Shown here one piece after another: positions 19,214 through 21,114 of a DNA stretch of 64,000 nucleotides. Source of the stretch: Paracoccus limosus (GTDB lineage Bacteria > Pseudomonadota > Alphaproteobacteria > Rhodobacterales > Rhodobacteraceae). The notes beneath the pieces are model-generated. The model saw nothing but the letters and a program-made list of their open reading frames with translations, had not been told where the DNA came from and ran no database searches. The stretch's first letter is position 1. Each line of letters starts with the position of its first letter. The stretch spans positions 1-64,000 of the forward strand of contig NZ_WMIF01000013.1 in assembly GCF_009711185.1 (NCBI RefSeq). Reading direction: 5' to 3'. A program made the position numbers and the translations under genes.

Positions 19214-20491
19214 CTAGCCGACCAGCGGCGCGCCGGCGCCATAGGTCTCGCGGTAATGGCGGTCCAGCCGCATCAGCGCGAGGCGCAGCACGATCTTGCC
19301 CGAACGCGCCGACCAGCCCAGCCGCCGCTCGGTCAGCTCGATCCCTTCGAGGAAGCAGCACACGCGCAGGCACAGATCGCCCATGCCCGGGCCCAGCTCG
19401 CGCAGAGCGGCGGCGACGCGGTTGCGCGCGCTTTCCGCGCCGCCGCCATAGCCCACCGACACGCGTGACACGTCGATGCCAGAGGTCAGGAAGCGGTCCC
19501 AGTTCTGGGTGACGCGCGGGCCCATCTGCGCCAGCTCGAAATCCTCGCGCAGCCGCTCGCCCGCCGCCACCATTTCAGGCGCCAGAAAGGGTGTGCCATC
19601 CGCCTCGCGCCGGCGCGCCAGCATCATCAGCGGGCTTTCGGCGATATTGACCCGGGCGCGGCGGCGGCGGCCATCCTCGGGGTCGGTGATCTCGCGATCC
19701 TCATAGCTGCGGTGATGTTCGGCATGGGCAAAGCCCGCCGCCTCTTCGGCGCAGCCCTCGGCCATGACCGGGGCGGCCAGAATGAAATCCTCGCGCTGCG
19801 GCAGGGCACCGCCGCGCCGCGCGGCGATCAGGCTGCGCAACACCTCGCGCCCCTGGGCCGAGATGACATAGCGGCTGACCCGGCCCTGCCCGGTCATCTG
19901 CACCCAGGCGCGGATCGCCATATGCTCGGCCAGCTCGCGGTCAAGGATGGCGGTGCGGATCTCGTCGCGCACGACGATGGCCTTGTCCATGCCCTCGGCC
20001 ACCACCATCTGCGCGCCCGGCTCGGCCAGACGGCGCAGGATGCGCGAGATCTGCTTCAGCCCGGTGCGGCCGGGCGTCAGCGCGGCGGGCTGGGCTGCGG
20101 CCGGACCTGGCGCCGGATCGGACCCCGGGCCTGCAACGTTGCCCGGCGCGCGGGTTGCGGCACGCTCGACCGCCTGATCGACCAGCGGATCGTCGCGCCG
20201 CGCCTCGAAACGGCGGATGCGGCGCAGGATGGTCGAGGCATGGCAGCCCAGTTCGCGGGCCAGCGCGCGGATGGTCTCGCCGCCCTCGACATGGCGCAGA
20301 TACAGGCCCAGATCGCCGTCTTCGGGCAGTCCGGGCGCGCCCGACAGGGCCGGGGGGTGATCGCCCGGCGCGGCAATCGCAGGCCGGGGCGATGCCTGCT
20401 CGTCGGGCCGATTGCAGCCCGCGGCCTCCAGCCCGGATTGCAGCCCGGCCGGAAAGGCGCCCAGGGCGAAATCTCCCGTCTGAATCGTCAT
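19214..20491 (-). CDS. DUF6456 helix-turn-helix protein, possible GafA-type activator
   Basis: The 425-residue protein has three parts. A helix-turn-helix (about residues 68-96, GGETIRALARELGCHASTIL) is joined by an Ala/Pro-rich linker (about 112-142) to a middle region (about 143-300). The C-terminal block (about 310-415) contains MGDLCLRVCCFLEGIELTER and a GWSARSGKIVLRLAL segment, the DUF6456 signature. I recall this domain and layout from GafA/GafZ regulators of gene transfer agents in Rhodobacter and Caulobacter, but could not check this. The ATG at 20491 has GAAGGA six bases upstream; a MDM start two codons earlier is less well placed. The gene is divergent from a DUF6477 gene across an elaborate control region. 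No phage-like structural gene is in the window. Confidence 0.75.
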   Translation of the reverse strand: MTIQTGDFALGAFPAGLQSGLEAAGCNRPDEQASPRPAIAAPGDHPPALSGAPGLPEDGDLGLYLRHVEGGETIRALARELGCHASTILRRIRRFEARRDDPLVDQAVERAATRAPGNVAGPGSDPAPGPAAAQPAALTPGRTGLKQISRILRRLAEPGAQMVVAEGMDKAIVVRDEIRTAILDRELAEHMAIRAWVQMTGQGRVSRYVISAQGREVLRSLIAARRGGALPQREDFILAAPVMAEGCAEEAAGFAHAEHHRSYEDREITDPEDGRRRRARVNIAESPLMMLARRREADGTPFLAPEMVAAGERLREDFELAQMGPRVTQNWDRFLTSGIDVSRVSVGYGGGAESARNRVAAALRELGPGMGDLCLRVCCFLEGIELTERRLGWSARSGKIVLRLALMRLDRHYRETYGAGAPLVG

Positions 20492-20531
20492 GTCCATTCC
20501 TTCGTTTTCCTGAGGCAAGCGGGCAGTCGCT

Positions 20532-20545
20532 CACCCATGGGTTGT
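20532..20545. promoter_or_regulatory. CACCCATGGGTTGT element before the DUF6456 gene
   Basis: The element contains the perfect 10-bp palindrome ACCCATGGGT. It ends 41 bp upstream of the DUF6456 ATG. A copy with one base change (R = G to A) lies at 20658-20671, at the matching distance from the divergent gene. Confidence 0.55.
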
Positions 20546-20590
20546 TGGTTTGCCCCTGCCCAAAAGCTCGGGTCACCACCGAGATGGGGC

Positions 20591-20620
20591 AATAATTCCT
20601 AACAACTCCTAAAGATTCCT
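20591..20620. repeat. Three tandem 10-bp iterons
   Basis: AATAATTCCT, AACAACTCCT and AAAGATTCCT follow one another without gaps, giving a consensus AANAATTCCT with exactly one helical turn per unit. They sit in the middle of the divergent DUF6456/DUF6477 intergenic region, flanked by the two CACCCATRGGTTGT elements. This is the arrangement of a cooperative protein-binding array. Confidence 0.65.
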
Positions 20621-20657
20621 TGCCGCAGCGCGCGCAGCAGAAGGTCGGAACGCAACA

Positions 20658-20671
20658 CACCCATAGGTTGT
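20658..20671. promoter_or_regulatory. CACCCATAGGTTGT element before the DUF6477 gene
   Basis: This is the second copy of the element at 20532, with 13 of 14 bases identical. It ends 42 bp upstream of the DUF6477 ATG. Confidence 0.55.
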
Positions 20672-20712
20672 CAATAATCGGTTCACCAAACCAGCCAGCA
20701 GGAGCACCGCCG

Positions 20713-21114
20713 ATGACCATGATGCCCAATGTCGTCCAGTTTCAGCCGCATCTCTCCAGCCCGGCCGGCCGGGCCTGGCGGCCGGCACAGGTCCGCCGCC
20801 CGCGCCTGCTGGTCGAGGCGGCGCGGGCCGGTCTGCCGAACTATCGCCGCAAGCGCGATCTGCGCCGCATCCTGCGCGGCGAGGAAATCCCGCAGCCGGG
20901 CGCGGCCCTGCGCCGGCTCTTGGCCGAAGAGGACAGGCTGGACCAGTCCCGGCGCGAAGCCGAGGCCGATTACGATGTCGAGCGCCATGTCCTGTTGCTG
21001 ATCGCGATCATGGCCGAATCCATTCTGGCGCTGCCGCAGCCCGTCGCGCGCCGCAACGGACCGAGCGCCGCGCCGGTCACTTTCCCCGGAACAGCGATCC
21101 GAGCACGCCCCTGA
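20713..21114 (+). CDS. DUF6477 family protein
   Basis: The 133-residue basic protein has a conserved centre (RRPRLLVEAARAGLPNYRR and a DLRRIL block, then PGAALRRLLAEE) and a C-terminal helix (LLLIAIMAESIL). This matches my recollection of DUF6477, a family largely confined to Rhodobacterales. Its function is unknown. The ATG at 20713 follows AGGAG with 9-nt spacing. It is divergent from the DUF6456 gene and shares its symmetric control region, so the two are probably co-regulated. Its 3' end overlaps the convergent HerA-like gene by 38 bp. Confidence 0.75.
   Translation: MTMMPNVVQFQPHLSSPAGRAWRPAQVRRPRLLVEAARAGLPNYRRKRDLRRILRGEEIPQPGAALRRLLAEEDRLDQSRREAEADYDVERHVLLLIAIMAESILALPQPVARRNGPSAAPVTFPGTAIRARP

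Follow-up and report, generated by a model that had tools for sequence, protein, structure and literature searches.

The window, by which we mean the whole 64,000-nucleotide stretch analyzed (Paracoccus limosus contig NZ_WMIF01000013.1, positions 1 to 64,000), carries a divergent gene pair whose Pfam matches lie far beyond chance. The gene on the minus strand, a gafA homolog (19214..20491), encodes 425 residues from an ATG at 20491; an alternative TTG start at 20518 would give an open reading frame of 434 residues (19214-20518, minus strand). Its C-terminal block, which includes CCFLEGIELTERRLGWSARSGK, matches the GafZ-equivalent domain DUF6456 (PF20057; 19247..19654, minus strand) at residues 289 to 424 with 197.2 bits (E = 1.4e-58; Pfam cutoff, 26.3 bits) and scored 200.8 bits in the whole-genome search. 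An N-terminal helix-turn-helix of the HTH_23/HTH_28 type (20183..20296, minus strand; residues 75 to 112 of the 434-residue frame) scores 25.9 bits with HTH_23 (Pfam cutoff, 24.6) and is fused with DUF6456 in one protein. DUF6456 proteins are BLASTp matches of GafA, the protein that activates RcGTA and binds its promoter and the omega subunit of RNA polymerase, according to passages of PMC6363796, PMC9638019, PMC6473078, and PMC8601537. A first-pass annotation, made from the letters alone, had described a 425-residue protein with these N- and C-terminal features and a DUF6477 neighbor; the open reading frame and both domain matches agree with that description, and the protein is of the GafA type.

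Across the divergent intergenic region at 20492..20712 lies the neighbor (20713..21114, plus strand; ATG at 20713, stop codon ending at 21114), which encodes 133 residues and is likely an ortholog of rcc01866. Its DUF6477 domain (PF20083; 20785..21030, plus strand) scores 101.1 bits (E = 3.5e-29; Pfam cutoff, 25), as expected from the first-pass annotation, and the nearest named DUF6477 proteins are those of Paracoccus. Neither protein matched an NCBIfam model at E ≤ 0.001. Profile searches of the whole genome (3.9 Mb, 72 contigs; E ≤ 0.001) returned a single DUF6456 and a single DUF6477 match, both on this contig (C5). The locus is flanked by genes for a HerA-like ATPase and an M20 peptidase; the lipA and GMP synthase genes that usually flank gafA are not its immediate neighbors in the window. 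The 3' end of the DUF6477 gene overlaps the convergent HerA-like ATPase gene by 38 bases (21077-21114). We conclude that the locus is a real member of the known gafA/rcc01866 system and is, in itself, largely ordinary.

Where does this genome carry the gene transfer agent (GTA) genes themselves? An RcGTA-type cluster was found on contig C34 (locus L005), away from the gafA pair on C5, as the first-pass annotation had proposed. Its genes run in the order terminase, portal, prohead protease, capsid, head completion, tail completion, tail tube, tail assembly chaperone, DUF2460, baseplate hub (phiJL001 Gp84 N), NlpC/P60, and GTA_TIM/Rcc01698, the last encoding 1298 residues; two open reading frames between the cluster genes were scanned and had no Pfam match. 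The genome holds four GTA_TIM matches in all, the best of which is on contig C33 (2382-3278) in a frame of 1324 residues, and a second, weak capsid match is on contig C71 (L006). The C33 and C71 matches are possibly GTA-like prophages that exist besides the GTA cluster.

We then asked how the pair is distributed among 244 genomes from the order, all of which belong to the window's family (Rhodobacteraceae in the wide sense). DUF6456 was present in 243 and DUF6477 in 240 of them. The refuting condition named in the first-pass annotation, genomes that keep the pair but have no GTA cluster, did not hold in general: GTA_TIM was matched in 233 genomes (in 14 by weak matches only, 1e-25 to 1e-41, and all 14 have a DUF6477 match). 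The four genomes that lack DUF6477 are G005, G056, G163, and G232; among these, GTA_TIM is present only in G056, and G232 lacks all three domains. Co-occurrence of DUF6477 and GTA_TIM (232/8/1/3) gives a Fisher P of 2.7e-4 with kinship ignored, a value that is optimistic because the genomes are related. G163 retains a DUF6477 remnant of 31 bits beside a short gafA frame of 286 residues (L014). Of the 11 genomes in which GTA_TIM is missing, 8 still have DUF6477, including G160, where it has an internal stop, and G021 has GTA_TIM, yet its DUF6477 carries an internal stop. Given the 8 GTA_TIM-less and the 14 weak-GTA_TIM genomes that have DUF6477, the pair may serve further purposes or may be lost only slowly.

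To the window we added 80 fetched loci (12 from its own genus and 68 from other genera), a sample biased to good matches because the loci were picked among the DUF6456 matches listed. A DUF6477 match was present in 80 of these 81 loci, and a divergent arrangement could be scored directly in 79 (one of them the L014 remnant); the exceptions are L009, where a long open frame masks the gene, and L048, which is cut by a contig end. Among 80 named loci from Thioclava, Celeribacter, Aliiroseovarius, Sinirhodobacter, and others (R. capsulatus is not one of them), DUF6456 is divergent from DUF6477 in 77, and the three misses are at contig edges. DUF6477 is thus conserved nearly as widely as DUF6456 and, in the set of 81 loci, is divergent from it in the 80 that allow a judgment. 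Weak DUF6477 forms (about 1e-7 to 1e-17) occur in genera g7, g12, g15, g40, g56, and g61, and the DUF6477 proteins of L067, L071, and L075 are without the YRRxRDLxRLL helix, as in the phage form described below. In genomes with weak DUF6477 forms, the GTA_TIM match is for the most part also weak or falls into two pieces, with exceptions such as G227, G220, and G013; co-divergence of switch and particle is a possible explanation.

The DNA between the two genes was compared in 79 intergenic regions, which leave out L048 and one locus without a settable start. A CtrA-type pair of half-sites, [TG]TAA-N7-[TG]TAA on the gafA strand, is present in 55 of them versus 1.0 expected from mononucleotide shuffles and agrees with the published site (passages of PMC6363796). 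The canonical CtrA site was not found in the window's intergenic region, and only 1 of the 13 own-genus loci, window counted, has a CtrA-type site. Where other genera mostly carry that site, most own-genus loci have a similar TTCCTAACAACTCCTAAAGA block, at 20596..20615 in the window in the form TTCCTAACAA.TCCTAAAGA. Two MCC-N3-GGTT elements, CCCATGGGTT near gafA (20534..20543, plus strand) and CCCATAGGTT near the DUF6477 gene (20660..20669, plus strand), are weak candidates for regulator sites. A similar AACCATAGGTT is located directly upstream of the -35 element of the genome's own GTA promoter (L005), and the element recurs at that place in G092 and is absent in G241. We regard the block and these elements as leads only.

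Comparison with two genomes of the same genus placed the GTA promoter of this genome at TTGACT-17-TAGAAC. In all three, a G+C-rich hairpin followed by a T-run stands about 25 bases past the -10 element, ahead of the first open reading frame. Is this arrangement general? We compared 23 GTA operons, namely, these three and 20 from genomes of 18 other genera that were located by their offset from GTA_TIM, among the matches listed. Hairpins with a T-run and an energy of ≤ -10 kcal/mol, located between -400 and -150 of the terminase start, were found in 22 of the 23 operons versus 4.8 expected from first-order Markov shuffles. In 21 of these 22, own leader included, the hairpin is positioned at -253 to -298; of the two leaders without one at that place, L284 has none and L288 has one elsewhere. 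When the 21 leaders were aligned on their hairpins, TTGAC stood at the same place in 20 (L285 has GTAAC), and in these 20 rows, cut to start at TTGAC, conservation covers T24-A25 of the -10 element and a large part of the spacer, which holds a CGnnCGnTC element.

In the window's genome this spacer element is a perfect dyad (GAACGTTC), and it reads GAGCGCTC in G092 and GACCGGTC in L289. At least three of the dyad's four pairs are formed in 9 of 20 loci, and no covariation between its halves was seen (46 of 80 pairs over 20 loci, a count reached by 809 of 2,000 re-dealings). The 20 hairpins retain their stems as core pairs swap: when pairings were read from each hairpin's own fold, every core position showed at least two pair types, and the first core pair was G-C in 10 hairpins and C-G in 10. 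RNAalifold, run on the plain sequence alignment, returned no consensus structure. As far as it can be read from sequence, the conserved promoter-leader layout is that of Q/GafZ-type anti-terminators, and with a predicted terminator between the promoter and the first gene, RNA polymerase would probably need the help of the switch to get past the hairpin.

These data bear on how the window's GafA acts. The reading that we favor, and consider fairly probable, is that the locus encodes a GafA homolog with a divergent DUF6477 partner and that GafA would load onto RNA polymerase at the GTA promoter, carry it through the terminator-like hairpin in the operon leader, and so activate the GTA cluster. 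Anti-termination enters this reading by analogy. GafZ, which matches the C-terminal part of GafA (passages of PMC11150451 and PMC9632790), is an anti-terminator whose action involves a palindrome situated between the -35 and -10 elements (PMC11150451), and the window's GafA shares its Pfam domain with a protein of our Caulobacter vibrioides control genome. Because the layout matches that of GafZ, lambda Q, and AlpA, and because the authors of PMC11150451 themselves suggest that GafA might have an unrecognized anti-termination activity, our prediction is that the GafA of the window both activates and anti-terminates.

A somewhat unlikely alternative is that GafA works at initiation only, recruiting RNA polymerase via omega, and that the hairpin in the leader stabilizes the RNA or terminates weakly, without regulatory weight. 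Published assays do show binding of R. capsulatus GafA to the promoter and to omega (passages of PMC9638019), the omega contact was not seen for Caulobacter GafZ in passages of PMC11150451, so that GafA and GafZ may differ in mechanism, and the hairpin, being known from sequence prediction, could be inactive. Against this alternative stand the hairpin and T-run, which occupy a fixed place past the promoter and ahead of the first gene in 21 of 23 operons, and the GafZ homolog, which is an anti-terminator. A reading in which GafA carries polymerase past the hairpin remains the one that we prefer.

What does the divergent partner contribute? The first-pass annotation had read the locus as a possible GTA switch of this organism, and this stands as regards the GafA-type protein and the GTA cluster on another contig. 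Its statement that DUF6477 has no known role does not, since a mutant of the divergent gene rcc01866 is reported to form immature particles and not to lyse (passages of PMC9638019, citing Hynes 2016). A function for rcc01866 could not be predicted, according to passages of PMC6363796, PMC9638019, PMC6473078, and PMC8601537, and Dshi_1585 of Dinoroseobacter shibae is termed its homolog (PMC6473078). The Roseobacter phage RDJL Phi 1 has homologs of gafA and rcc01866 with a ctrA-like gene between them (passages of PMC6363796). We found that its gp38 matches DUF6456 (42.4 bits) and its gp36 DUF6477 (30.5 bits), that gp37 matches Trans_reg_C alone, and Pfam matches gave the same series of DUF6456, receiver-less ctrA, and DUF6477 in RDJL6. 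In RDJL Phi 2, tblastn located a gp36 relative (61% identical) at a place annotated with ctrA and a gp38 relative (56% identical) nearby. The phage DUF6477 gene overlaps the receiver-less ctrA gene, behind the gafA-like gene. Given the position beside gafA and the fact that the rcc01866 homolog of RDJL Phi 1 encodes DUF6477, rcc01866 very likely belongs to the DUF6477 family. Its predicted fold has four helices (mean pLDDT of 92 to 97 in 10-residue blocks over residues 31 to 100 of a 132-residue model), and no clear relative of this fold was found among solved structures.

Outside the family, the DUF6477 cutoff was reached in only 2 of 237 genomes of the class, both times weakly. In G299, DUF6477 stands beside an XRE-type gene and is divergent from a DnaA-like open reading frame and a DUF6456 frame, a locus that is gafYZ-like. 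A DUF6477-like frame of 28.2 bits was also seen in G358 (L121, 8425-9051), with a neighbor that we take to be a gamma-glutamyltransferase gene; the 18-kb stretch around it has no DUF6456 match, and the 41 genomes with DUF6456 do not include G358. A sensitive profile applied to 20 further DUF6456 loci outside the family gave one candidate with an E of <0.01, in L173 (genome G312), where it is divergent from DUF6456. A second small frame that is divergent from Gaf genes, on the bacterial contig L127 (3753-4037), scored an E of 0.3 and was taken up for its place; it has no Pfam match. The family of this protein is likewise without a Pfam model and is named "cytoplasmic protein" by NCBI in Phyllobacterium, Brucella, and others, and we took the order to be Hyphomicrobiales on the basis of these named members and the gene order.

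The L173 frame serves as a bridge, since it scores with both PF20083 (17.8 bits; cutoff, 25) and the L127 small-protein family (28.2 bits). A survey of 150 genomes from the order of G312 found the small gene in 71, DUF6456 in 124, and GTA_TIM in 110. Sixty of the 71 small genes are transcribed divergently from a DUF6456 gene no more than 5 kb away. The remaining 11 genomes comprise four in which DUF6456 was not matched and seven in which it is on a different contig, at a distance of more than 5 kb, or otherwise oriented. The small gene and GTA_TIM co-occur (66/5/44/35; P = 1.2e-7, kinship ignored). Comparison of the DUF6477 and small-gene family profiles gave a probability of 73 and an E of 3.1e-5 over 31 columns (an earlier alignment pair had given 49 and 1.7e-4), and none of 200 column shuffles reached the core score of 28.0, the best reaching 16.2. 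Both models end in a long helix, a short loop with Y-S/D-x-x-R-H-V/I, and a helix. We therefore grade the Hyphomicrobiales small family as a likely, and not an established, remote relative of DUF6477, because the similarity is short and below the Pfam cutoff.

The mutant phenotype, the phage overlap with a receiver-less ctrA, and the place beside Gaf genes suggest that DUF6477 is most likely a small late-gene transcription cofactor. The protein would then assist the GafA switch, and the genes that most likely depend on it are the late ones for maturation and lysis, which also need CtrA. The main rival, which we regard as unlikely, is that it acts not on transcription but on the CckA-ChpT-CtrA phosphorelay, raising CtrA phosphorylation so that late genes follow. 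The rcc01866 mutant does resemble a cckA mutant (passages of PMC9638019), and CtrA-type sites are frequent in the intergenic regions, as described above. However, the CtrA beside the phage DUF6477 (RDJL Phi 1 gp37, 151 residues) matches only the DNA-binding domain, so phosphorylation could hardly be the target there, and the likely DUF6477 relatives adjoin gafYZ in another order. It is very improbable that the gene is a passive neighbor with no part in GTA biology: shared promoter DNA can hold divergent genes together, and DUF6477 outlasts GTA_TIM in the eight genomes noted, but the mutant is defective in GTA maturation and lysis, and the linkage recurs in phages and, remotely, in another order.

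What might the cofactor reading mean beyond this genome? We tentatively suggest, as a possibility that we would not yet call probable, that alphaproteobacterial RcGTA-type activator loci inherited from a phage a switch composed of a Gaf protein that is both activator and anti-terminator, a terminator in the target operon, and a divergently encoded small helical protein that joins the RNA polymerase complex. As part of the same tentative proposal, the small proteins would form a superfamily of DUF6477 in Rhodobacteraceae, the Hyphomicrobiales family, and a minimal phage form and would release the late maturation and lysis genes. The terminator-like leader hairpin, the conserved spacer element, the likely remote relative of DUF6477, and the joint absence of DUF6477 and GTA_TIM (three of the four genomes without DUF6477) go beyond what we found in print. 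In its passages, the 2024 Caulobacter study (PMC11150451) left anti-termination by the Rhodobacter-type GafA undecided, and the fixed-place leader hairpin is a candidate for the missing cis element. The enigmatic rcc01866 gains a likely family and a predicted fold, along with a phage version overlapping ctrA and, on the gafYZ side of another order, a likely distant relative. For specialists, the interest lies in the predicted terminator of the leader and in the broader family of partner proteins.

How does the locus compare with known systems? The closest is gafA (rcc01865)/rcc01866 of R. capsulatus, which likewise joins a helix-turn-helix and DUF6456 in one protein, has a small divergent neighbor gene, and is located apart from the RcGTA cluster. 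It differs in its usual flanks, lipA and a GMP synthase gene (passages of PMC6363796) versus the HerA-like ATPase and M20 peptidase genes here, and in its canonical CtrA site upstream of gafA. GafY/GafZ of Caulobacter crescentus resembles our system in a DUF6456-type protein that works with a DnaA-like DNA-binding part, a palindrome between the -35 and -10 elements of the GTA promoter, for which the spacer dyad is the candidate here, and a terminator in the transcription unit, here a predicted one (passages of PMC11150451 and PMC9632790). In Caulobacter, however, these are two proteins rather than one, and the terminator lies past the first gene, whereas the predicted one here lies ahead of it. 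Lambda Q and P. aeruginosa AlpA have the layout predicted here, of a loading element in the -35/-10 spacer and a downstream terminator (PMC11150451), and passages of that study describe GafZ as having no sequence or structural similarity to either; both are processive anti-terminators, a role that we infer for GafA. Finally, RDJL Phi 1, RDJL Phi 2, and RDJL6 combine DUF6456 and DUF6477 genes as the window does and add a receiver-less ctrA between them. The phage genes are all on one strand, whereas the window's pair is divergent, and the phage DUF6477 proteins have 71 to 73 residues with a gap at the second helix, compared to 133 residues in the window.
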